Positions 1 to 50,593 of a stretch of 64,000 bases of DNA are shown one piece after another. Within the stretch, counting starts at the first letter, position 1. Every line of letters begins with the position of its first letter. Position numbers and translations under genes: made by a program. The stretch comes from Streptomyces mirabilis (GTDB taxonomy: Bacteria; Actinomycetota; Actinomycetes; Streptomycetales; Streptomycetaceae), in NCBI RefSeq assembly GCF_018310535.1, contig NZ_CP074102.1, forward strand, positions 8,742,001 through 8,806,000, in the 5' to 3' direction. The notes beneath the pieces are model-generated. The model ran no database searches, had not been told where the DNA came from, and saw only the letters and a program-made list of their open reading frames with translations.

Positions 1-1098
1 GACGAGGGCAGGCGGTTGCTGCGGATCATCCGCAGAGGCACCGGTTCGGTGGTGACCTGGCGGCGGGCCCAGATGGCGCTGTTATCCGCGCAGGGCATGC
101 CCATGACGAAGATCGCCGAGGTGACGTTCACCGGTGCGGATCGGGTCCGGGACGTGATCCACAACTTCAACACCGACGGCTTCGACTCGCTCTACCCGAA
201 GTACAAAGGCGGCCGGCCAAAGACCTTCACGCTGCCCGAGCGTCGCGAGATCAAGAAGATCGCGAAGTCGAAGCCGGCCGAGCACGGCCTGCCGTTCTCG
301 ACCTGGAGCCTGGTCAAGCTGGCCGACTTCCTGGTCGCCGAGGGGGTGGTCGACGACATCAGCCACGAGGGCCTTCGGGTCCTGCTCCGCGAGGAGGGCG
401 TCTCGTTTCAACGCGTGAAGACCTGGAAGACCTCACGCGACCCGGACTACGCGGCCAAGAAAGCCCGGGTCGAGCATCTCTACGCCATTGCCGACGGCGA
501 GGTCATAGCCGAGGAAGGCGAGCCCGAAGTCGTCTTCTGCATGGACGAATTCGGGCCGCTCAACCTCCAGCCCCACCCCGGCCGTCAATGGGCCGAGCGT
601 GGCGGCCGGCACAGGGATCCCGATCGGGAGCCCCGGCCCCGCCGCCGGGCGACCTACACCCGCCCGCACGGGGTCCGGCATCTGTTCGCCGCCTACGACC
701 TCGCCAAGGACCAGCTCTACGGGCACGTCAAGAAGACCAAGAACAGGTCGAAGTTCCTGGAGTTCTGCCGCTACCTGCGCTCCCTGCACCCGATGGACGT
801 GCGCATTGCGATCGTCCGTGACAACTACTCCCCACACCTGACGACGAAGCGGTGCCAGCGCGTCGCGACGTGGGCAGCGGCGAACAACGTGGAGATCGCC
901 TACACCCCGACCAACAGCTCCTGGCTCAACCGGATCGAGGCCCAGTTCACCGCCCTGCGCCACTTCGCTCTCGACGGCACCGACCACGCCAGCCACAAGG
1001 AGCAGGGGAGCATGATCCGCCGCTATATCATCTGGCGGAACAGGCACGCTGCCGACGAACGCCTCCGCAAGGTCGTGAACAGGGCGAACGTTGCCTGA
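1..1098 (+). CDS. IS630-family transposase, 5' partial
   Basis: Cut-and-paste DDE transposase that moves its own element into TA sites. The frame is open from base 1, and the residues before the first possible start (DEGRR) fit the family N-terminus, so the gene begins upstream of the window. An N-terminal helix-turn-helix region comes first. The catalytic residues follow: Asp in VVFCMDEFG, Asp in IAIVRDNYSPH and Glu in SSWLNRIEAQF. At least 365 codons are present without interruption, so it looks functional. It is a different subtype from the IS630 transposase at 49169. The convergent secreted-protein gene ends at its border. Confidence 0.9.
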   Translation, partial: DEGRRLLRIIRRGTGSVVTWRRAQMALLSAQGMPMTKIAEVTFTGADRVRDVIHNFNTDGFDSLYPKYKGGRPKTFTLPERREIKKIAKSKPAEHGLPFSTWSLVKLADFLVAEGVVDDISHEGLRVLLREEGVSFQRVKTWKTSRDPDYAAKKARVEHLYAIADGEVIAEEGEPEVVFCMDEFGPLNLQPHPGRQWAERGGRHRDPDREPRPRRRATYTRPHGVRHLFAAYDLAKDQLYGHVKKTKNRSKFLEFCRYLRSLHPMDVRIAIVRDNYSPHLTTKRCQRVATWAAANNVEIAYTPTNSSWLNRIEAQFTALRHFALDGTDHASHKEQGSMIRRYIIWRNRHAADERLRKVVNRANVA

Positions 1099-1106
1099 TG
1101 CGGCAC
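1..1106 (+). mobile_element. IS630-family element, right part (left end outside window)
   Basis: The element consists of the transposase gene plus a short right end. The sequence reads GCGGCAC then TA at 1100-1108, so the last IS base is taken as 1106 followed by the TA target dinucleotide typical of IS630. The left inverted repeat lies before base 1 and cannot be checked. Confidence 0.7.
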
Positions 1107-1564
1107 TAGCCGAGCCGCTCCAGGATCCACTGGGGGCCGCCGTAGGGGGTTACGGTGACATGGTCGCCCTCAGTGGTCAGGCGGCCCAGCTCGCCCCGTT
1201 CGAAGGCGATGGCAACTGGCCCTTCGTCGGGCTGGCCCTGGATCGTCCACCGGTCGGGCCGGCTGCCGCACTGGTCGACGGACACGAGCGGCGGGTAGAT
1301 GGGGATGGGCGCGAGTGCCAGGCAGCGGTCTCTTCCGCGCGCCTCGACGATCTGGGCCATGCCGTCGCCCTGGTTGCGGATCTCCCATACGGGGTTCCAG
1401 TCGCAGGGCGCGAGGCGGCCGCCGTGCGGCCCTTCCGCCAGGCACGCACCAGTGCGTACATCACGGATGTAGTAGAAGCCGTCGTCGGCGGCCTGGGCGG
1501 GAGTGGCCAGCGCCATCACGGCAACGGCGGGCACGGCCAGTGACAGGATCGAGCGAATACGCAC
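1106..1564 (-). CDS. Small secreted protein, ricin-type beta-trefoil-like
   Basis: 152-residue exported protein of unknown function. Residues 1-25 form a signal peptide (MRIRS, hydrophobic core, TPAQA cleavage site). The mature part has regularly spaced Trp and Cys residues and repeats such as GACLAE...W and DRCLALA...W, resembling a carbohydrate-binding beta-trefoil (RICIN) fold; this is inferred from pattern only. The stop codon TAG at 1106-1108 overlaps the TA duplicated by the neighbouring IS630 element, so the true C-terminus may have been trimmed by the insertion. Confidence 0.65.
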   Translation of the reverse strand: MRIRSILSLAVPAVAVMALATPAQAADDGFYYIRDVRTGACLAEGPHGGRLAPCDWNPVWEIRNQGDGMAQIVEARGRDRCLALAPIPIYPPLVSVDQCGSRPDRWTIQGQPDEGPVAIAFERGELGRLTTEGDHVTVTPYGGPQWILERLG

Positions 1565-2162
1565 GGGACTCCTTAACCGGAAGAGAACGGGGAGGAAGGT
1601 GCGGGCTGACCGGCCCGCGCTGCCAAGCTCACAGAAGCCCGGCGCCCTTCCCGCTGGACTTCCACGCTATGGGCGTCGCGGCGCCCCTGAGCTGGCATCA
1701 ATGCCAAACCGCCCGTGCGGGGGCAGTGGAAGCGCGGCAGCGGTCCACCTGATGCGCCCGGTGTGCGACGGTAGCCGCAAGGGCGCGGTGAAGCGCCGGA
1801 TCCCGCCAGCCTGTGAATCCCGGATAAGCTCCCCATATCCGAGCTGCATGCTGGGTAGAGCGGCGGTGGGTGTCGCCCATACGATGATCGCGTGACGGCC
1901 CGCCGCACCCTTGGCACTGGCCCCCAGGACGCGCACAGCATCCGCGCTGCCCAGGCCGACCTCCTCGATGCAGTCCCCGGAGTCCGTCTCCCCGACCTTG
2001 ACGAGCTGCGGGCCCGTGGAGTGCTCGGCCCTTACCCGGCGACGTCCCCGAGCGAGCGGCGGACCCTTGGAGCCGGCGGCCGCGCGGTCGGCGATTCGCC
2101 CGACCTCTCAGCCTGACGCGTCCTCAGCACGCCGCGCTGAGAGCCCGATAGGGTCGCCCCGG
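1565..2162. other. Intergenic stretch without a convincing gene
   Basis: About 600 bp between two minus-strand genes. A 74-codon GTG frame at 1892-2116 (+) has no recognisable domain or clear ribosome binding site. It could be a remnant. Confidence 0.3.
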
Positions 2163-2189
2163 CGTCACAGTTATGCCATAGCTGTGACG
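2163..2189. promoter_or_regulatory. 27-bp near-perfect palindrome
   Basis: Arms CGTCACAG (2163-2170) and CTGTGACG (2182-2189) enclose TATG-C-CATA, with one mismatched pair (2171/2181). The symmetry about a single central base resembles a dimeric regulator or recombinase site more than a terminator. It lies just before the hairpin at 2193. Confidence 0.4.
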
Positions 2190-2192
2190 ACG

Positions 2193-2218
2193 AACGGCCC
2201 CTCGGATAAGGGGCCGTT
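2193..2218. terminator. 10-bp perfect hairpin terminator
   Basis: AACGGCCCCT (2193-2202), a 6-nt loop, then AGGGGCCGTT (2209-2218). It lies 24 bp beyond the stop of the minus-strand XRE gene (2242) and is followed by TT on the plus strand. It can act as a terminator for that gene. Confidence 0.65.
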
Positions 2219-2241
2219 CTTGGCGCGTCGCACCGTTGGGA

Positions 2242-2898
2242 CTACCTGAACGACGCCGCAGCAGACGTAAGTCCTGGCATCCACTGGGACTCGGGCCCCT
2301 GCAGCGCCTTCAGCCGCCGCCAGGTGAATACCCACACGTCCAAGTTCTTGTCCCGGATCCCGCAGGCGTACAAGTACGCCATGAACCGGTCGTACTTGGG
2401 CAGTTCTTCCGAGTTGAGCATGGCTCCGACGCTGCTCTTACTCAGGCGGCTCCGGCCGCGGTCCGCCAGTGTCCGCAGCGACGGCGAGCCCGCCCAGATC
2501 GGGACGGCACGCAAGGCCTCGACGAACTGGGCCGGCGTGGCCACCGTCAGCGGGTCCGGCTGTCCGAACTGCGGCAGGGGAATGTCGCTGTGGAACGCGA
2601 TCTCGGCCCGGCGTTGCCCTCGCTCCCGACCCGTGACCGCTTGATCCCAAAGTCTCAGGACCCGGGCAGCGTCGTCAGGTTCACTATCCAGAGCCTCCAG
2701 GACCTTCAGGAGGGCGTCGCGCTGGGGGAGCGTTCTGCCCAATAGCCACTGTTGCACCGACGCGGGGGACACCTGGGCGCGGTCTGACAGCCGCCTGAGC
2801 GTCGGCGAACCCTGTTTGACTCGCAACTCGCGGAGAGCATGCGCCAGCTCGGAATGCGGCATGTCCTCGCTTCTCTGGATCGTTGCCACCGCGGTCAC
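2242..2898 (-). CDS. XRE-type transcriptional regulator with duplicated HTH
   Basis: 218-residue DNA-binding protein. Residues about 15-75 form an XRE helix-turn-helix (LRELRVKQGSPTLRRLSDRA then VSPASVQQWLLGR). A second, similar HTH half is seen at about 120-175 (SPSLRTLADRG, SKSSVGAMLNSEELP). The C-terminus has the FTWRRLK segment common in Streptomyces relatives of these proteins. The start overlaps the stop of the upstream membrane-protein gene by 4 bp, so the two are translationally coupled. No enzymatic domain is present. Targets are unknown. Confidence 0.75.
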   Translation of the reverse strand: MTAVATIQRSEDMPHSELAHALRELRVKQGSPTLRRLSDRAQVSPASVQQWLLGRTLPQRDALLKVLEALDSEPDDAARVLRLWDQAVTGRERGQRRAEIAFHSDIPLPQFGQPDPLTVATPAQFVEALRAVPIWAGSPSLRTLADRGRSRLSKSSVGAMLNSEELPKYDRFMAYLYACGIRDKNLDVWVFTWRRLKALQGPESQWMPGLTSAAASFR

Positions 2899-3206
2899 CG
2901 ATGCCCTCGGCGCAGCGCGCGCTCGGAGAAGCGGAGGAGCGATCGCAGCGGCCGCGCGAGCGCGGTGGACGCTTTGTCCGCCACTCCGATGAGAAGCGCG
3001 GCCCAGAGAGCCCCGGCTACTTCCACGGCATGGCCGTGGATCCAGAGTTCACCAAGCGCGATGATCGAGGCCGTGAGTACGGCGACCGTGCCCAGAATCC
3101 GACCGAAGCCGAAGGAACGACGGGCGGGAGGACGCACGACGCATCCGTTCGCCGTCAGAGTGGCAGGCCAGAGAGCCCAACCGCCCTGCGTGCAGAGCCA
3201 CAGCAT
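2895..3206 (-). CDS. Small membrane protein, unknown function
   Basis: 103 residues with two likely transmembrane segments (about 35-55 and 62-82, ILGTVAVLTASIIALGELW and VEVAGALWAALLIGVA) and a basic C-terminal tail. It is the first gene of a two-gene unit. Its stop overlaps the start of the XRE regulator by 4 bp, suggesting co-translation and a membrane-linked partner role. The family is not recognised. A shorter start inside the frame is possible. Confidence 0.5.
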   Translation of the reverse strand: MLWLCTQGGWALWPATLTANGCVVRPPARRSFGFGRILGTVAVLTASIIALGELWIHGHAVEVAGALWAALLIGVADKASTALARPLRSLLRFSERALRRGHR

Positions 3207-3487
3207 GGAGAGACCTCCGTGAGGTTCGTCCTAGCCCGGACGTTAAGAAGGGGTTTCGCAGACCCCTGGGGCAGCACTGCGCGGCCTTGCTTCGAGCATG
3301 GCGTCACGGTGATACGAGGAGCAACTTCCATTTTATGAGGAGAGTTGGGGACTCACGACCATCAACTGTTCAGTCGGTCAGCAGCTCCAAGCCGCAGCGC
3401 AGGACATGGAGTACTCGCCAACCGTTGCTGCCGCTCCAAGACCGTCCAGGAGTGTCCAAGAACGTCCACTAGGGTGCGTTTTAGAAG

Positions 3488-4389
3488 TTGATCAAGCTCT
3501 GTAATGATCAACGCGTGGAACGTGGGGATCTGACGAGTGCGCAGTGGGCCAGGCTGGAGCCGTTGTTGCCGGTGGGGAAGAAGCCGGGACGGCCTCCGGT
3601 CTGGTCCAAGCGGCAACTGATAGACGGCATTCGGTGGCGGACACGGACGGGTGCGCCGTGGCGGGACGTGCCGATCAGGTACGGCGAGTGGGAAACCGTC
3701 TATGGGTTGTTCCGGCGTTGGCAGCGCGATGGGACCTGGAAGCGAATCCTCAAACAGCTCCAGGCCCGGGCCGACGCCGACGGGCTGATCACCTGGGACG
3801 TCAGCGTCGACTCCACCATCGCCCGCGCACACCAGCATGCCGCCGGCGCCCGAAAAAGGGGGCTCTCCAACGAGAACCGCCCGGCGGCGTCGACAGCGAA
3901 CCGGCCGACCACGGACTCGGACGCTCCCGGGGCGGACTGACGACCAAGCTCCACCTCGCGGTCGAGCAGGGGCAGAAGCCGCTGTCCCTGGTCATCACCG
4001 CTGGCCACCGCCATGACAGCCCGCAGTTCCAGAATGTGCTCGACCGCGTCAGTGTCCCGCGCGTCGGTCCGGGACGCCCGCGCACCAAGCCCCACAAGGT
4101 CCGCGCGGATAGGGCGTACGGCTCTCGCGCGAACCGCGCCTACCTGCGCAGACGCGGCATCCGCTGCACCATCCCGGAGAAGACCGACCAGATCCGCAAC
4201 CGAAAGAAGCGTGGCATGCGCGGCGGCAGGCCACCGAAGTTCGACAAGGCCGACTATCGCGAACGCCACGCTGTCGAATGCGGAATCAACCGCCTCAAGA
4301 GGCACCGGGCCGTCGCGACTCGATACGACAAACTCGCCGTCCGCTACGAAGCCACCGTGGTCATCGCGGCGATCAACGAGTGGCTGTGA
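3488..4389 (+). CDS. IS5-family (IS427 group) transposase, -1 frameshift
   Basis: DDE transposase in two overlapping frames: the first reading frame 3488-3940 (DUF4096-type N-terminus, [14 protein letters not shown]), the second ending at 4389 with RSRGGLTTK, the [11 protein letters not shown] motif and the C-terminal [14 protein letters not shown] helix holding the catalytic Glu. A slippery run C-GAA-AAA-GGG near 3850-3862 would shift the ribosome by -1 and join the frames into one protein of about 300 residues, as is usual in this IS group. No internal stop lies in the joined frame, so it may be active. Confidence 0.85.
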
Positions 4390-4422
4390 GGGCCGAGCGG
4401 CGCGCATCGCGCCGCACGAGGT

Positions 4423-4791
4423 TCATCGCGCTGGTTCCACCGGTGGCCACGGAGCCCAGGGAAGAGCTTTACGCCAGCCCGGCCGCCCCCGGGCCCAGTC
4501 CTGAAGCACTTCGGCTACAGGTTCCACGGCGAACACCTCGTGCTCACGCGGCACCCGGGCGTGGAAGTGCCTGTCCGGGCCACCCTCGAGGTATTCAACC
4601 CGGTAGCTGAGGTCGTCGTTGAGATAGACCTGCATGTAGTGCTGGCCGACAGGTTCGAGGTCGAGCCGCTGGACAACTACAAATCGCCAAGTCAGGCTCA
4701 TGTCGGCCAGTAGATCGTGCAGATGTTCGTCAGACGGGTCGTCCCATGACGTCCCGTCCCACTCAATCGCCCGCAGTACCGGTGTTGCCAT
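4423..4791 (-). CDS. Accessory gene in IS5 element, small acidic protein
   Basis: 122-residue cytoplasmic protein of unknown function, rich in Asp, Glu and Trp (pattern WDGTSWDDPSDEHLHDLL, RHFHARVPREHEVFAVEPV). It has no signal peptide or membrane segment. Size and composition resemble polymorphic-toxin immunity proteins, but no family is assigned. It lies entirely between the two inverted repeats of the IS5 element and reads against the transposase, with a 33-bp gap between the stop codons. It would therefore move with the element. Confidence 0.65.
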   Translation of the reverse strand: MATPVLRAIEWDGTSWDDPSDEHLHDLLADMSLTWRFVVVQRLDLEPVGQHYMQVYLNDDLSYRVEYLEGGPDRHFHARVPREHEVFAVEPVAEVLQDWARGRPGWRKALPWAPWPPVEPAR

Positions 4792-4949
4792 GAGGGCGAC
4801 TGTACTGGCCGATCATGCTGCGGACATCAGCGGACGGCCGCTTATGAAACGCACCCTAGCCAGGGACAACTTGTCCGGGGTTAGAACTGCCCTTCATCCG
4901 GTCTCCGGTTCGCGTCAAGATTGTCCTGTCGAACAGAGGAGGTCGGACG

Positions 4950-5771
4950 ATGGACCGGGCGTTGCTGGCGGATTTTCTCCGAGCGCGTCGTGAGGCGTTG
5001 CAGCCGGAGGATGTCGGGCTTCCCCGCGGGCAGCGGCGCCGCACCGGCGGGCTGCGGCGCGAGGAGGTAGCGGTGCTGGCCGGGATGTCGGCCGACTACT
5101 ACAGCCGAATCGAGCAGCAGCGGGGTCCGGCGCCGTCGGAGCGGATGCTTGTCGCGCTCGCCCGGGCGCTGCGCCTCAACCAGAGCGAGCAAGACCACCT
5201 CTTCATCCTGGGCGGGAACCCGGCGCCGCGGCGGATCCCGCGGGACGATTACATCGGTCCCACGATGACGCGGATCGTCGCCGGCCTCTCGGACGTGCCC
5301 GCCATCGTGCTGTCACGGCTCGGCGAGGCGTTGCTGCAGACGCCCCCGGCGGTCGCCCTGCTCGGTGACTACACCCAGTACTCGGGCATGTCCCGTTACC
5401 TGGTCTACCGTTGGTTCACCGGTGATCCGCGGGTTCGTGGCCTGTACCCCGTCGAGGATCATCCGATACGGGGCAGGGTCTTTGCCGCGGAGATCCGGGA
5501 CGCGTACACGGCGGATCCCACAGGGAGGGCCGGCGAGATCGTCGCGGCGCTGCTGGAGGCCAGTTCCGAGTTCGCGAACATCTGGCGGTTGCACGAGGTG
5601 GGAGTGACCCACCATCACGATCTCAAGCGCTACCTGCACCCCGAGTTGGGGGAGCTGGAGCTGTACGCCGAGATGCTGTTGGATCCGGAGCAGTGCCACA
5701 CGCTGCTGGTGTTCACCGCCGTGCCCGGTTCCCCGAGCCACGGCAAGCTTCAGCTCCTGACCGCCGTCTAG
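4950..5771 (+). CDS. XRE regulator with MmyB-like ligand-binding domain
   Basis: 273-residue transcription factor. Residues 1-75 form the HTH (GLRREEVAVLAGMSADYYSRIEQ). Residues about 100-265 match the MmyB-like ligand-binding domain (YSGMSRYLVYRWFTGDPRVR, ELYAEMLLDPEQCHTLLVF). A strong ribosome binding site (GAGGAGG) precedes the ATG by 7 bp. It heads a co-directional run of five genes and lies 113 bp upstream of an oxidoreductase. In this family such regulators usually control the adjacent oxidoreductase gene. The inverted repeat at 5835 is a plausible operator. Confidence 0.9.
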   Translation: MDRALLADFLRARREALQPEDVGLPRGQRRRTGGLRREEVAVLAGMSADYYSRIEQQRGPAPSERMLVALARALRLNQSEQDHLFILGGNPAPRRIPRDDYIGPTMTRIVAGLSDVPAIVLSRLGEALLQTPPAVALLGDYTQYSGMSRYLVYRWFTGDPRVRGLYPVEDHPIRGRVFAAEIRDAYTADPTGRAGEIVAALLEASSEFANIWRLHEVGVTHHHDLKRYLHPELGELELYAEMLLDPEQCHTLLVFTAVPGSPSHGKLQLLTAV

Positions 5772-5834
5772 CGGCTGTCGTCCCTCACACACCTGAAGGC
5801 ACTGCCTCGAAGCCGAGGTGTGCCCGGGTCTCAC

Positions 5835-42887: not shown

Positions 42888-44102
42888 GTGATCCGTGCGT
42901 ACAAGTTCCTCATGCGGCCCACCGTCCGGCAGGCTCAGGCACTCGGCGAGATGCTGCGGGATCACTGCTCCCTCTACAACGGGGCGTTGCAGGAACGCCG
43001 TGACGCCTACCGGCATGTCTCGAAGACGAGCGTCAGGTACGGGATGCAGTCCGCGCAGCTCAAGGGGATCAGGGCGTTCGACCCGGAGCGTCAGGGCCGC
43101 TGGTCGTTCTCCTCGCAGCAGGCCACCTTGCGCCGTCTCGACAAGGCGATGCAGGCGTTTTTCCGCCGGGTCAAGTCCGGTGAGACGCCTGGCTATCCGC
43201 GTTTCCGTGGGGTGAACTGGTTCGACACGGTGGAGTTCCCCAAGGACGGGGACGGCTGCCGGTGGGACTCCACCCCGCACGATCCTGTTACCCGCGTCCG
43301 CTTCCAGGGTGTCGGTCACGTCAGGGTCAACCAGCACCGCGCCGTGGCCGGGCGGGTCAAGACCGTGTCGGTCAAGAGGGAGGGCCGTAAGTGGTTCGTG
43401 GTGCTGAGTGCCGAGCAGGACCAGCCGGAGCCGCTGCCCGCGACCGGCTCCGTGGTCGGGATCGACCTGGGCATCGCGAACTTCCTCGCCGACTCGAACG
43501 GCGGGTTCGTGCCCAACCCGCGCCACGGCCGCCGGGCAGCCGGGAAGCTCCAGGCAGCGCAGCAGGCACTGTCCCGGTTCCCGCGTGTCCGCCGGGACAA
43601 GCGCACCGGCAACCACCAGCGCGCCGTGGAGAAGGTCGCCCGGCTCCACGGCAAGGTGCGCCGCCGGCGGCTCGACCACGCGCACAAGACCGCGCTGGGC
43701 CTGGTCCGCGCGCATGACGTCATCGCGCACGAAGACCTCAGGATCCGCAACATGAGCAAGGCCCCCGCACCGAAGCCCGACCCCGGCCGGCCGGGCACCT
43801 TCCTGCCCAACGGGACCGCCGTCAAGGCCGGGCTCAACACGTCGATCAGCGATGCCGGTTGGGGGGTGTTCCTGACGATCCTGCACGCCAAGGCTGAAAG
43901 CGCCGGACGGGAAGTGATCGCCGTGGACCCCCGCAACACCTCCCGCACCTGCCCCGCATGCGGGCACACCGCGAAGGAGAACCGGCCCACACAGGACAAG
44001 TTCCACTGCCTCGCCTGCGGCCACAACGCCCACGCCGACACAGTGGGAGCCACCAACGTTCTACGGGCCGGGCTGGTCCGTCGCGACGCCAACCCAGCAT
44101 AG
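42888..44102 (+). CDS. tnpB: RNA-guided nuclease TnpB (IS605 OrfB)
   Basis: 404 residues. RuvC catalytic residues are intact: Asp at about 193 (GIDLGIANF), Glu at about 282 (AHEDLRIRN), Asp at about 384 (NAHADTVGATNV). A four-Cys zinc ribbon lies between them (TCPACGHT ... CLACGHN). The N-terminal part has the family start (IRAYKFLMRPTVRQ) and SSQQATLRRLDKAMQAFFRR. In this family the protein uses an RNA made from the element's right end to cut the empty donor site and so maintain the transposon. Confidence 0.92.
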   Translation: MIRAYKFLMRPTVRQAQALGEMLRDHCSLYNGALQERRDAYRHVSKTSVRYGMQSAQLKGIRAFDPERQGRWSFSSQQATLRRLDKAMQAFFRRVKSGETPGYPRFRGVNWFDTVEFPKDGDGCRWDSTPHDPVTRVRFQGVGHVRVNQHRAVAGRVKTVSVKREGRKWFVVLSAEQDQPEPLPATGSVVGIDLGIANFLADSNGGFVPNPRHGRRAAGKLQAAQQALSRFPRVRRDKRTGNHQRAVEKVARLHGKVRRRRLDHAHKTALGLVRAHDVIAHEDLRIRNMSKAPAPKPDPGRPGTFLPNGTAVKAGLNTSISDAGWGVFLTILHAKAESAGREVIAVDPRNTSRTCPACGHTAKENRPTQDKFHCLACGHNAHADTVGATNVLRAGLVRRDANPA

Positions 44103-45800: not shown

Positions 45801-46026
45801 GGGGTACACCGGACAGGATCCGGCTGTACGTCAGGCCGGTATCGGCCGCCGCGATGGGAGATGGGGGAGGCAAGGCAAGAGTTGATGCAACTGTTGCCCT
45901 ACGTGGGCGGTGCGCCTCACCGTGCGGAACAGGTTTAGCGGTGATGTCGCGGGGGGTGCCATTTTGCGTGTGTGCCTGCTGGGAATTGGCCCTGGCGGTA
46001 TGGCAACCTCTTGGAGGCGGAAGAAG

Positions 46027-46305
46027 GTGGGGGAGCACCATCGGTTAACACGCGTGCAGCGGTCCTTGATTGGTGTGGTCGTCGCCGGTGCGCTCGTCAT
46101 CGCGGGTATCGGCTTCGCCGGTTCGTACGCGGCTGTGCGCGAGCTGGCCCTCAAGAAGGGCTTCGGGAACTTCGCGTACGTCTTCCCGATAGGCATCGAC
46201 GCGGGTATCTGCGTCCTGCTCGCCCTGGACCTCCTGCTGACCTGGATCCGCATCCCCTTCCCGCTGCTGCGCCAGACGGCGTGGCTGCTGACGGTCGCGA
46301 CGATC
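46027..46305 (+). pseudogene. DUF2637 (SpdB-like) plasmid-spread protein, 3'-truncated
   Basis: GTG start after GGAGGCGGAAGAAG. Sequence: HHRLTRVQRSLIGVVVAGAL ... SYAAVRELALKKGFGNFAYV and IGIDAGICVLLALDLLLTW, i.e. three membrane helices of the DUF2637 fold common in actinomycete conjugative plasmids and integrative elements. It is cut after VATIA by an IS5-type fragment on the other strand. Confidence 0.75.
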
Positions 46306-46307
46306 GC

Positions 46308-46535
46308 CCCCCTGGCCCGGCTCCACTCGGTGAACCGGCGGTGCCCGGTCGGCCCGGACGGACCGAAGACCGGCGGCAGTTGCCGCCAGGTACAGCCCGT
46401 CGTGGCCACGAACAGGATCGTCGCCAGCACTCGGTCGGTGGCGCGGAGGCGGGCACCGAGGTCGTCGGCGAGGGCGAGCAGGATGCGAGGCGCTACCGTC
46501 TGGCACTGTTCGATTGCAGCAGTAGTAATTCCGCT
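46308..46535 (-). pseudogene. IS5-family transposase, N-terminal fragment
   Basis: VATTGCTWRQLPPVFGPSGP, then HRRFTEWSRA, preceded by ILLALADDLGARLRATDRVL. It is the N-terminal region of an IS5-type transposase of another subgroup. The catalytic core is absent. Confidence 0.65.
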
Positions 46536-46621: not shown

Positions 46622-46681
46622 ATGAACCATCTCGGCGACGCGAACCTGCGCACCTGGACGCTGCGCGTTACGGCCCGACTA
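46622..46681 (+). pseudogene. 5' part of an interrupted gene (3' part at 50258)
   Basis: ATG plus 19 codons (MNHLGDANLRTWTLRVTARL) end exactly at the TA target of the IS5 element. Reading on from 50258 after both IS elements are removed gives AADTQDQLAWLGEREL and an open frame to 50593, a 131-residue protein. Confidence 0.8.
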
Positions 46682-46701
46682 GGGCGCGTATCGAGTCGTG
46701 A

Positions 46702-47705
46702 TCAACGGGTGGTCCGGGCGAGGTCTTTGATCCAGATCATCGAGGCGCGCAGGTGGAGGCCGGCGAGGTAGCTGTCCGGGGTCTTGTCATATCGGGTGGC
46801 GATGCCTCGCCAGGCCTTGAGCTTGTTGATCGACCGCTCGACGCTGTTCCGCTCCTTGTAGAGGTCGGCGTCGTGGCTGACGGGCCGACCGCCCTTGCCA
46901 CCCTTCTTCTTTCGGTTGGCGGCCTGGTCCTTCTTCTCCGGGATCACTGCCTTGATGCCGCGTCGGCGCAGGTGGGCCCGGTTGCCGCGGGACGAGTAGG
47001 CCTTGTCCCCGGCGACCGCGTCCGGTCGGGTGCGAGGGCGGCCGACGGGACCGCGGACCCGTATCTTCCCCAGCACGGGGATGAACTGCGGGCTGTCTGC
47101 GGCCTGCCCCGCGGTCAGGACGAACGCCAGCGGGCGACACTTCCGGTCGGCCGCGAGGTGAACCTTGCTGGTCTGCCCGCCCCTGGAGCGTCCGAGGAGG
47201 GCGGCTTTCAGCCGCAGTTTGCGCCGACGCCTGAGGCGTCGCCGCTCGTCCCGCTCGGGATCGGTCTCGGCGTCCTGCCCGTTTTGTTCTTCGAGGCCGC
47301 CCCCTTTGACCTGGCCTTCTCCTCCTCGGCGGCAGCCTTCTCCAACGCGCTGATGACGTCCTCGTCCAGGTGCATCCCAGCAGCGTCGTGGTGAGCCCGC
47401 GCGGTGGTGGAGTCGACGCTGACCAGCGACAAGTCCACCTCGCCCCGCTTCGCAGCCTCCGCCATCAGGCCCTCCAGAAGCGCCTCGAACACGCCCGCGT
47501 CACGCCACTGCCGGAAGCGGTTGTGAACGGTCGACCAGGCACCGAACTCCTGCGGCATCTCCCGCCACTGCCCGCCCGTCTTGAAACGCCAGATCACACC
47601 CTCGAACTGCTGCCGCAGCCGCTCGGGATACGGACCGTACTCGCCGATCGGCAGGTACGGCCCAATGAACTCCCACTCCGTATCCGACAGTTGCACTCGC
47701 GTCAT
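46702..47705 (-). CDS. IS5-family transposase, -1 frameshift, intact
   Basis: First frame 47705-47208 (LSDTEWEFIGPYLPIGEYGP; SVDSTTARAHHDAAGMHLDE). A slippery AACAAAACGGG near 47277-47290 permits a -1 shift into the open second frame (RSRGGQTSKVHLAADRKCRP; RPDAVAGDKAYSSRGNRAHL; ERSINKLKAWRGIATRYDKT). The combined protein of about 330 residues has no stop. It is closely related to the copies at 28368 and 36876. It would mobilise the SMI1/KNR4 gene beside it. Confidence 0.88.
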
Positions 47706-47747
47706 GCAAGACGATCTACCTGATCACGTCCCGTCACGAGGGTGAAT

Positions 47748-47774
47748 CCCGCAGATTGATCACAACTCGCGCCC
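47748..47774. repeat. Internal IS5 right-type end
   Basis: Inverted, it reads GGGCGCGAGTTGTGATCAAT, i.e. the left end with five bases (TATCG) missing. It is followed by TA. It marks the original end of a simple 1093-bp IS before the accessory gene was included. Confidence 0.7.
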
Positions 47775-47825
47775 TAGGCGAAGGCGGCAGCTTCAGTCAC
47801 GACGACCACCCCTAAGCTCGACCTC

Positions 47826-48335
47826 ATGACCGCGTTCGACGACCTCACTCGCCTCATCACTCCGCCGGCGCAACCACTGTGGGCGAACGGAGACTGGAAG
47901 GAGGTGGAGGCAGCACTCGGCGTGGAACTCCCCTCCGACTTCAAGCAGTTGGTCGGAGCCTACGGGGCTTACCACTTCGCCGAGTTCTTGACGCCACTCA
48001 CACCCTTTGGCGGGCAAGACCTGCTGGTCGGCCCGGCGAAGCGGCTGCTGGACCAGGAACGCAACTTCCGGGACAGCAACCCCGAAGACTGCCCGTACCC
48101 CTTCTATCCGGAGCCGGGCGGACTCCTGCCGTGGGCAGGAACCGACAACGGGGACCGCGTGTGCTGGCTCACTGACAGGAAGCCGGACGAGTGGACGGTC
48201 GTCTGCTGGAATCCGCGGGGCTGGTACTACGACGCGCATCCTGTGGGTGCGGTCGAGTTCCTGGTCGGCTGGCTGTCAGGACACATCAGCACCAACGTCT
48301 TTCCCGATGCCGCTGAGTTTGCCGAGGAGGAGTGA
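47826..48335 (+). CDS. SMI1/KNR4-family protein carried by the IS5 element
   Basis: 169 residues of the SMI1/KNR4 (SUKH) fold: an N-terminal helix region (FDDLTRLITPPAQPLWANGD), EVEAALGVELPSDFKQLVGA and YGAYHFAEFLTPLTPFGGQD, then LLPWAGTDNGDRVCWLTDRK and DEWTVVCWNPRGWYYDAHPV. SUKH proteins are the commonest immunity proteins against polymorphic toxins. No toxin gene is adjacent. It lies between the internal and outer right ends of the IS5 element, so it travels as an orphan immunity-type gene. Confidence 0.88.
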   Translation: MTAFDDLTRLITPPAQPLWANGDWKEVEAALGVELPSDFKQLVGAYGAYHFAEFLTPLTPFGGQDLLVGPAKRLLDQERNFRDSNPEDCPYPFYPEPGGLLPWAGTDNGDRVCWLTDRKPDEWTVVCWNPRGWYYDAHPVGAVEFLVGWLSGHISTNVFPDAAEFAEEE

Positions 48336-48450
48336 TCCCCTGCTCACTTGGATTGATCGCGACTCGATACAGGCCCTAGTGCAGCGCCGCATTGATCTTG
48401 CGGGGGTTTGTGCCCCACCGTCAGCGCTACTGACGGCGGGCAGTGATGTG

Positions 48451-49065
48451 TCAGCTCTTGACGAGTACGGTCGCAAGGGCTGACAGCGCGGAGTTGGCCT
48501 GGGCTGCGTCAAAGGCTGCAGGGTCGAACTGGTCGGCTGAGTCGAGGCCGATCCATTCCAGGCGGTCTTCGTGTTCTTCGTGGCGGGGGTCGGCAAGGAT
48601 CTCGATCAGGTAGTCGTATCCCCAGATACCGCCACAGTCCTCAGGCGGGCAGGCTCGGCGGCCGGTGAGGCATCGGGGGTAGGCGGTGTCGGCCTCCGCC
48701 TCGGTGACGTCCTCGATGAGGATGTCGTGTTCCCAGTCGTCGCCGAAGTCGTATGTGTAGCGGAGCCGGTCGCCGGCGTGGGGAGCCACCTGGCCGAGCC
48801 GTTTGGAGGCGGCGCTGCGGATGCCCAGGTCGCGGTCGGCGACGCCGTATCGGTCCTGTCCGCTTTCGAAGGCCCACATGTGGTAGTCCTCCCAGCCGAA
48901 GGCAGCCTGGACGACGTCGTGCAGCTCGCGCAGGGTGACGCCTGACGGCACCTCCAAGCGGCGCCAGATCGGCGGTCGGGAGTCCCGCAAGGTGATCTTG
49001 ATCTTGTGCACGGTCTGACTCGGTGCGGTCCGCGAGTTCGGCTTCGCGCTCCTGCTGTTCGCCAT
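48451..49065 (-). CDS. Plasmid pRiA4b ORF-3-like protein carried by IS630 element
   Basis: 204 residues with the pRiA4b ORF-3 domain: VHKIKITLRDSRPPIWRRLE, HDVVQAAFGWEDYHMWAFES, YTYDFGDDWEHDILIEDV, then a Cys pair region (PRCLTGRRACPPEDCGGIWG). The biochemical role of this family is unknown; members are frequent on plasmids and beside transposons. ATG 49065 follows AGGA; an ATG 9 bp earlier is also possible. It lies inside the inverted repeats of the IS630 element and is divergent from the transposase. Confidence 0.88.
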   Translation of the reverse strand: MANSRSAKPNSRTAPSQTVHKIKITLRDSRPPIWRRLEVPSGVTLRELHDVVQAAFGWEDYHMWAFESGQDRYGVADRDLGIRSAASKRLGQVAPHAGDRLRYTYDFGDDWEHDILIEDVTEAEADTAYPRCLTGRRACPPEDCGGIWGYDYLIEILADPRHEEHEDRLEWIGLDSADQFDPAAFDAAQANSALSALATVLVKS

Positions 49066-49168
49066 GGCGGCCATCCTGCCATCCGTGCCGGCCGTGCCCA
49101 GGCGGGACGTGTGCCCCTGCTCGCGACAATGATCACCGCGAGTCGTTGAGTCGAAGGGGGGACAGCGC

Positions 49169-50227
49169 GTGCCGGTGGTCAGTCCGTTCCAGGTGGCCTG
49201 GGAGGGTGAACAGCACAAAGTGCTAGACGATTTGGCGCGTTCTCGGACTGCGCCGTTGCGCCGGGTGCAGCGGGCCCGGGCCGCGCTGTCCTGTGCGGAG
49301 GGCGTCGCGAACGCGGTCATCGCCCGCACCCTCGACGTGCATCTGGACACCGTGCGTCGCTGGCGTAAGCGGTTCGCCGCCGAGGGTCTGGCCGCGCTGG
49401 AGGACCGGCCCCGGACTGGCCGCTCCCGCCGCTACGGTCCCGACGTGCACCTGGCCATCGTCGCCACCGTCACCTCCGCCCGGCCCCAGACCGACAGCCA
49501 GTGGACTCACCGCTCCATCGCCCATCGCCTGGCCTCCACCGGGATATCAGCGTCCCAGATCGGGCGGATCCTGGCCGGCCTCGATCTCAAGCCGCACCTG
49601 GTGCGTGGCTGGCTCACCCGCCCGGAAGATCCGGACTTCTACACCAAGGCCGCCGAAGTCTGCAGCCTTTACCTGCGCCGCCCGCCCCACTCGGTGGTGC
49701 TCAGCGTGGATGAGAAGACCGCGATGCAGGCTCGCTCCCGCCGCCATCCCACGCGGCCGGCCCGCCCGGGCCAGGCCGAGCGGCGCGAGTTCGAGTACCG
49801 CCGCCACGGCACGGCCTCCATCGTCGCGGCCCTGGACGTGCACACCGGGCAGGTCCTGGTCGAGGACATCGCCCGCAACGACTCGGCCACCTTCATCGAC
49901 TTCCTGCGGATGCTGGACCAGTCCATCGATTCGAAGCTGACGATCCACCTGGTTCTCGACAACGGGTCGTCCCATGTCTCGAAGGCGACCCGGGCCTGGC
50001 TGACCGCGCACCCGAGGTTCGCCGTCCACCACACGCCCAAACACGCCTCGTGGCTCAACCAAGTCGAGATCTTCTTCTCGATCCTGGCCCGCCGACTGCT
50101 GCGGCGCGGCGAGTTCACCTCACCCCAGGACCTCATCGGCCAGATCCGCGAGTTCACCCTCGCCTACGACGACGAGGCCCGCCCGTTCCGCTGGACCTAC
50201 GACGGAACCCCGCTCAAAGCTGCATGA
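49169..50227 (+). CDS. IS630-family transposase
   Basis: 352 residues. HTH (LRRVQRARAALSCAEGVANA, LDVHLDTVRRWRKRFAAEGL), linker, then the DDE domain with Asp in VVLSVDEKTAMQA, Asp in IHLVLDNGSSHVS and Glu in HASWLNQVEIFFS. Start GTG follows AAGGGGGGAC. The frame is intact and the inverted repeats are nearly perfect, so the element should be mobile. It shares little with the IS630 gene at the left edge of the window. Confidence 0.93.
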   Translation: MPVVSPFQVAWEGEQHKVLDDLARSRTAPLRRVQRARAALSCAEGVANAVIARTLDVHLDTVRRWRKRFAAEGLAALEDRPRTGRSRRYGPDVHLAIVATVTSARPQTDSQWTHRSIAHRLASTGISASQIGRILAGLDLKPHLVRGWLTRPEDPDFYTKAAEVCSLYLRRPPHSVVLSVDEKTAMQARSRRHPTRPARPGQAERREFEYRRHGTASIVAALDVHTGQVLVEDIARNDSATFIDFLRMLDQSIDSKLTIHLVLDNGSSHVSKATRAWLTAHPRFAVHHTPKHASWLNQVEIFFSILARRLLRRGEFTSPQDLIGQIREFTLAYDDEARPFRWTYDGTPLKAA

Positions 50228-50257
50228 CCCCCGCAAGATCAACGCGGCGCTGCACTA

Positions 50258-50593
50258 GCGGCCGACACCCAAGATCAACTTGCCTGGCTGGGCGAGCGTG
50301 AGCTGGAGACGAAGGACGTCGTTGAAGAGGTGGAGCTCATGTGCCGCGTGTCCGAAGGGCTCGCGGAGCGCGGAGCCTTCGAGCCTGAGGATCAGCGTCA
50401 TCTTCGGGCCATCGGCCGTCGTATCGGCGAGATCGATGCCACCCGCCGCGTCGGTCCCTGGGACAACGCTCTGGCCACAGATTCGGCGTGGGACGACATT
50501 CGTTCTCTCGCTCGCCAGTTTCTCCTCACGAGGCTGGGCGACTGGCATCAGCCACTGCCACGCCTCGTGCCCCCACCCATGGGCGACCACTGA
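50258..50593 (+). pseudogene. 3' part of the gene interrupted at 46681
   Basis: 111 codons (AADTQDQLAWLGERELETKD; CRVSEGLAERGAFEPEDQRH; ARQFLLTRLGDWHQPLPRLV). It begins directly after the IS630 TA duplication and is in frame with the piece at 46622-46681. The full protein is acidic with no recognised family. Confidence 0.8.

Follow-up and report, generated by a model that had tools for sequence, protein, structure and literature searches.

The locus and its genes

The window analysed here, meaning the whole stretch of 64,000 nucleotides of Streptomyces mirabilis DNA, contains a compact unit made of an IS5-type transposase and a gene of the SUKH (SMI1/KNR4) superfamily, both enclosed in the span 46682-48376 and with a TA, part of a CTAG, on each side (Table 1). 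Terminal inverted repeats and a TA duplication, as in the IS5 family, are both found in this unit, whose subgroup we take to be the IS427-like group. Base for base, the left end and its outer right counterpart match at 21 of 24 positions, and a degenerate pattern describing such ends occurs at just two places in the whole window (the ends at 46682 and 48376) and never in 100 shuffles. The outer right end lies 602 bp past an inner one at 47774. The preliminary description, made from the sequence alone, had already given this distance and the number of matching bases, and the pattern scan and the coordinates agree with it on both.

The transposase is of the DDE kind found in IS4 and IS5 elements. 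It is encoded in two frames, which carry matches to PF13340 (83.5 bits, cut-off 34.3) and PF01609 (60.6 bits, cut-off 23), while the first frame alone scores 106.1 bits with the IS5-family profile NF033580, slightly under its cut-off of 110. The two-frame layout is common to all five full-length plain copies in the same genome, and the frames are presumably joined by frameshift. These plain copies are 1098 bp long, 99.8-100% alike, and bear GGGCGCGTATCGAGTCGTGATCAA at both ends; the copy in the window is 90% identical to them, with a transposase dN/dS of 0.13-0.22 against a plain copy. The same genome also holds an internally deleted derivative of the plain element, about 0.5 kb long and with both ends intact (G000:C1:686061-686586, L011).

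The passenger gene scores 45.3 bits with PF14568 (cut-off 27) and 34.8 bits with PF09346 (cut-off 25.4), which places its product in the SUKH superfamily; a profile search of the protein gave no NCBIfam match. That an SMI1/KNR4 gene sits between matched IS ends, as first proposed, is therefore well founded.

Table 1. Features of the unit and its surroundings (window coordinates), and cargo genes of the sister elements (locus numbers)
Feature	Position or loci	Strand	Basis or remark
Host gene, 5′ part	46622..46681	+	rejoined reading frame, genome comparison
Left TA, target duplication	46680..46681		inside CTAG, read from sequence
Left terminal inverted repeat GGGCGCGTATCGAGTCGTGATCAA	46682..46705	+	pattern match; same sequence at either end of all five full-length plain copies of the genome
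Transposase, second frame, DDE domain PF01609	46702..47223	-	ORF list and profile match
Transposase, first frame, PF13340	47208..47705	-	ORF list and profile match
Inner right end, defective	47756..47774	-	comparison with plain copies
SUKH (SMI1/KNR4) passenger gene, 169 aa	47826..48335	+	ORF list and profile match
Outer right terminal inverted repeat GGGCCTGTATCGAGTCGCGATCAA	48353..48376	-	pattern match
Right TA, target duplication	48377..48378		read from sequence
IS630-family element, TA on both sides, same target as the IS5 unit	48379..50255		inverted ends, profiles, homology in other genomes
PRiA4_ORF3 (pRiA4b ORF-3-like) passenger gene of the IS630 element	about 48451-49131	-	PF07929
IS630-family transposase	49169-50227	+	NF033545
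Host gene, 3′ part	50258..50593	+	rejoined reading frame, genome comparison
Response regulator, histidine kinase and MMPL transporter cargo	L115-L120, L133, L136-L139		at least 11 of 392 genomes
SnoaL and LysR cargo	L122
95-aa ORF cargo	L123
NmrA-type gene cargo	L124
SDR and XRE/MmyB-type regulator cargo	L131
179-aa ORF cargo	L132
TetR and anthrone-oxygenase-like gene cargo	L134

Host gene, empty site and neighbouring element

The unit interrupts a host gene, and it does not do so alone. The host reading frame is open throughout only after removal of 46682-50257, that is, of the IS5 unit together with the IS630-family element that follows it. Once rejoined, the gene is matched across the junction, with nothing inserted there, in 18 of 392 Streptomyces genomes (source genome included) at 69-86% identity, a match being counted when it began at query positions 1-13 and ended at 360 or later. 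Because the rejoined frame runs through and these genomes match it across the junction, the SUKH gene must be part of the inserted DNA. The split host gene had been put forward as proof that the whole unit was inserted: the 18 genomes support this in that the SUKH gene is part of the inserted DNA, but the gene closes only when the IS630 element, which the preliminary description missed, is removed as well.

The IS630 element has inverted ends at 48372-48407 and 50227-50263. Homology to it in three other genomes begins at 48377 (L024, genome G228), 48372 (L025, G283) and 48378 (L028, G297) and spans its passenger gene; a fourth (L027, G234) has the ends and lacks the passenger region, and in all four loci the homology starts within 48370-48378. 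Both borders of the IS5 unit are thus independently marked, by the host gene at the left and by the IS630 element at the right. The two bases outside the visible IS630 end are TA in L024, CA in L028, GA in L025 and TG in L027, so that the TA rule for this element, with TA at one of four homologous loci, is not confirmed by its relatives.

A damaged inner end

The transposase had first been described as bounded by its own right-type end at 47774. No intact end exists there: five base pairs (TATCG) present in all five full-length plain copies are missing, and when the IS in the window is aligned locally with a plain copy, homology gives out 10 bp ahead of the normal tip. How was this tip lost? 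A SUKH locus of Streptomyces hyaluromycini without any IS match (L051) is 93% identical over 47766-48313, a stretch that includes the last bases of the inner end. The tip (about 47766-47774) may accordingly be read as SUKH-side DNA standing in place of the IS tip; alternatively it may be the IS tip with a 5-bp deletion, a relic of which would also survive in S. hyaluromycini. Judged by its sequence, the inner right end is not intact under either account. The Rhs-like homology in L051 ends at about 3917-3921, 20 bp short of the stretch shared with the inner-end tip.

Origin of the outer right end

Compared with the termini of the IS itself, the outer right end has three differences in 24 bases. 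Two plain IS copies (L129, L130) in the genome of another species (G370), 86% identical to the IS in the window, have a right end that agrees with it exactly for 26 bp. Since this exact match is with a plain IS other than the one in the window, the outer end is probably a stub left by a second IS copy, of which 26-27 bp remain, and the unit would be a hybrid in which two IS lineages meet, the second surviving as a right end. A stray end from a nearby plain copy of the source genome was considered and ruled out, since the 14 zero-mismatch ends of that genome fall into seven pairs: five plain elements, the short derivative and the SUKH unit. The idea that a simple IS captured a gene by using a second end thus holds in one respect: a second, outer right end bounds the unit, which occupies a TA of the host gene as a single block. 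It does not hold as a picture of two working right ends, the inner one being damaged and the outer one looking like the stub of another IS.

Sister elements in Streptomyces

Ends with at most one mismatch were sought in 246 and then in 392 Streptomyces genomes (the 246 included), and found in 62 of the 392. Among the matches listed, at least 34 convergent pairs within 10 kb were counted by eye: 17 with the spacing of plain elements (about 1.1 kb), three shorter and 14 longer. The longer ones comprise the unit in the window, 12 cargo elements and one composite (L121) in which two IS copies stand inverted to each other; a single end led to each of L134 and L136-L139. Sequences were retrieved for every one of the 13 long-spaced pairs that lie in other genomes, and for some of the single ends. 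Other elements will have been missed, as outer ends with at most one mismatch were the search criterion, and many listed ends have no partner within reach, which means that in plain copies as well one of the two ends is often degenerate.

Further end pairs flanking non-transposase genes, which the preliminary description had proposed to look for, do exist. Seven other cargo types were found, making eight designs with the unit in the window. The most frequent carries two-component and MMPL transporter genes. In L115 it occupies 162-5809 (5.6 kb), and by eye the left flanks differ between loci; both outer ends are within one mismatch in seven of the at least 11 genomes. Its long aligned pieces are 93.8-99.6% alike among L115-L120, and those of the remaining loci are 95.2-96.2% identical to L115. 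Two cargo ORFs have no family name (L123 and L132, without Pfam match at E 0.01), and that of L132 has no NCBIfam match either. Five of the seven other designs carry genes that have a name but no known connection with immunity; these ORFs are the cargo of the other two.

The inner end is altered or gone in all eight designs, a contrast with the outer ends that is partly built into the search, since the sister elements were found by intact outer ends. Four designs (the window, L123, L124 and L131) have their cargo on the side of the transposase that faces its right end, and the other four have it on the left-end side. In four of the eight (the L115 type, L122, L124 and L131), the outer end includes 117-194 bp of terminal IS sequence, a sign that a second IS copy has left a remnant there; since the remnant of L131 is a left end, both outer ends of that element are left-type. 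TA is present at both ends of all 13 sister loci checked and the site is CTAG in 12 of them, L134 having CTAA. The joined flanks of these 13 loci gave no clear host gene.

A two-component/MMPL cassette on a plasmid of S. xanthophaeus (L128) was considered as an IS-free ancestor. It is probably not one, as a relic of the inner IS end can be seen by eye; a pattern scan allowing up to four errors did not pick up this relic.

The SUKH gene and its relatives

Seven database proteins are 80-92% identical to the SUKH protein; four come with a source name, in each case a Streptomyces. The dN/dS values of 0.26 against L051 and 0.21 against a second relative (L052) indicate that the protein is conserved, and most of the divergence behind them may predate capture. 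Among the 392 Streptomyces genomes, the SUKH region has one close relative besides the source genome (G275, 93%). L051 adjoins an Rhs-core-like fragment, and no cognate toxin for the SUKH protein was identified. The contig of L052, from Streptomyces sp. AW19M42, contains, besides the intact gene, a partial second copy of its 3′ end (3258-3349).

Orphan immunity genes that hop independently of toxins had been suggested at the outset. The genomes do not bear this out: the 392 yielded no second copy of the unit, and hence no SUKH element at another site with a TA duplication, and two relatives of the SUKH region in other genomes have no IS match alongside. A search of plasmids with the SUKH region matched, among the 20 records listed, only the first 83 bases, which are the IS end. 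An end-pattern scan of 29 SUKH loci in other genomes gave weak matches with three errors, none convincing as an IS end.

Relation to known mobile elements

Mobile insertion cassettes consist of IS-type ends around a non-transposase gene. The SUKH unit resembles them in having IS-type ends around such a gene, but it retains its own transposase. Composite transposons are also close, with cargo beside IS sequence and ends from two IS copies. Here, however, two complete flanking copies are not found: one complete IS is present, and the second amounts to 26 bp in the unit and to 117-194 bp in four sister designs.

The nearest known kind is the tIS, or transporter IS, described in the cited parts of the literature as an IS with passenger genes unrelated to transposition (PMC3129680, PMC7986276). 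The unit likewise combines an IS transposase and a foreign, unrelated gene within one pair of ends and was inserted as a unit, as we infer in one step. It differs in that a crippled but recognisable form of the plain IS's earlier end survives, that its outer end derives from another IS lineage, and that its passenger belongs to an immunity family. Passenger genes are also reported in Tn3-family transposons (PMC7371123), and the passenger-gene cases in the cited part of that paper include no IS5 copy with a passenger.

As far as the cited part of the source goes, the rAID loci of Bacteroidales contain recombinase-linked, protective SUKH orphan immunity genes (PMC12247911). The likeness is a SUKH gene without toxin on potentially mobile DNA. 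In contrast to that recombinase association, the present unit holds an IS transposase and a single SUKH gene in an IS5-type transposon of an actinomycete, known from sequence. The titles and abstract openings of the open-licence PMC papers listed contain no report of an IS with a SUKH gene within it or of a Streptomyces series of cargo derivatives with dead inner ends. Within the literature covered, then, the passenger-carrying IS is an already known kind of element, while SUKH as an IS passenger and the series with dead inner ends are apparently new.

Proposed formation and movement of the unit

The unit is probably a passenger-carrying derivative of an IS5-family insertion sequence, moving by way of its left and outer right ends. 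The element's own transposase would recognise these two ends, everything between them, SUKH gene included, would be excised or copied, and the unit would then be inserted at a CTAG site with duplication of the TA. The original right end being crippled, the IS would be immobile without its passenger. As for the outer end, it would be the remnant of a related second IS copy, formerly located beyond the SUKH gene. We infer from the sequence that the transposase acts on the left and outer ends, that the unit moved whole and in a single step, and how the events of capture followed one another; the anatomy, the ends, the target, the empty site, the intact transposase layout, the damaged inner end and the recurrence in sister elements are observed. 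Against this account, the SUKH unit is known as a single copy at a single site, and its outer end is both short and at three positions unlike the ends of the IS itself.

Could the unit be a decayed composite transposon, two IS copies having once flanked the SUKH gene and now being inert debris? A composite with two inverted IS copies does exist in genome G010 (L121), and the second copy at the SUKH unit is indeed down to 26 bp. It is however the same origin as that preferred above, the difference being the claim of inertness, and the unit still has its left end, its outer end and the two transposase frames in preserved form, with the transposase dN/dS given earlier. As a description of the present unit it appears unlikely.

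Stepwise assembly in place would dispense with movement of the unit as a whole: an IS of the G370 type, whose right end is the outer end, would have entered the host gene, and a segment of IS and SUKH gene would later have replaced its left part by recombination. The outer end does belong to another IS lineage than the rest of the IS, recombination is possible through IS homology, and no second site of the unit is known. Such a course would nevertheless require that a second crossover fell inside the roughly 26 bp of the outer end and that the left tip was retained exactly at the same TA, and the two-component/MMPL sister, of the same design, is present as a whole unit at several sites; we hold it to be quite improbable. 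Finally, that the SUKH gene and the outer end were ancestral at the locus and only an IS at 46682-47774 was inserted, the outcome that the preliminary description had set against its own reading, is conceivable from the CTAG also found at the inner end (47774-47777), but it is practically ruled out by the 18 of 392 genomes whose host-gene match runs through the junction and has neither of them there, and by a host frame that resumes only past 50257.

Under the preferred reading, movement as a passenger-carrying derivative, the recurrence of the design looks like a natural way for neighbouring genes to become mobile cargo, and it lays out concretely, at sequence level, how a plain insertion sequence could turn into a transposon with cargo. 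Several apparently independent examples occur in one IS lineage, and the two-component/MMPL element is clearly spreading. It thereby becomes testable whether cargo is locked to the transposase once the inner end is lost, and if the SUKH protein is active, an immunity gene would be travelling on the smallest kind of transposable element. A bolder proposal, speculative and on balance doubtful, is that this IS lineage is a recurrent gene-capture device in Streptomyces, in which one of two neighbouring copies would shrink to its outermost end while the inner end of the other dies, so that arbitrary genes become obligate cargo; the SUKH unit would then be a self-mobile, toxin-free immunity gene able to spread resistance to interbacterial toxins.

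Surroundings of the unit

Upstream of the unit, a 404-aa ORF at 42888-44102 presumably encodes a TnpB protein of the IS200/IS605 kind. Closer by, a short ORF on the minus strand (45831-46430) resembles by eye part of another IS5-type transposase and overlaps a DUF2637 gene (PF10935) on the opposite strand. The region around it looks insertion-rich.
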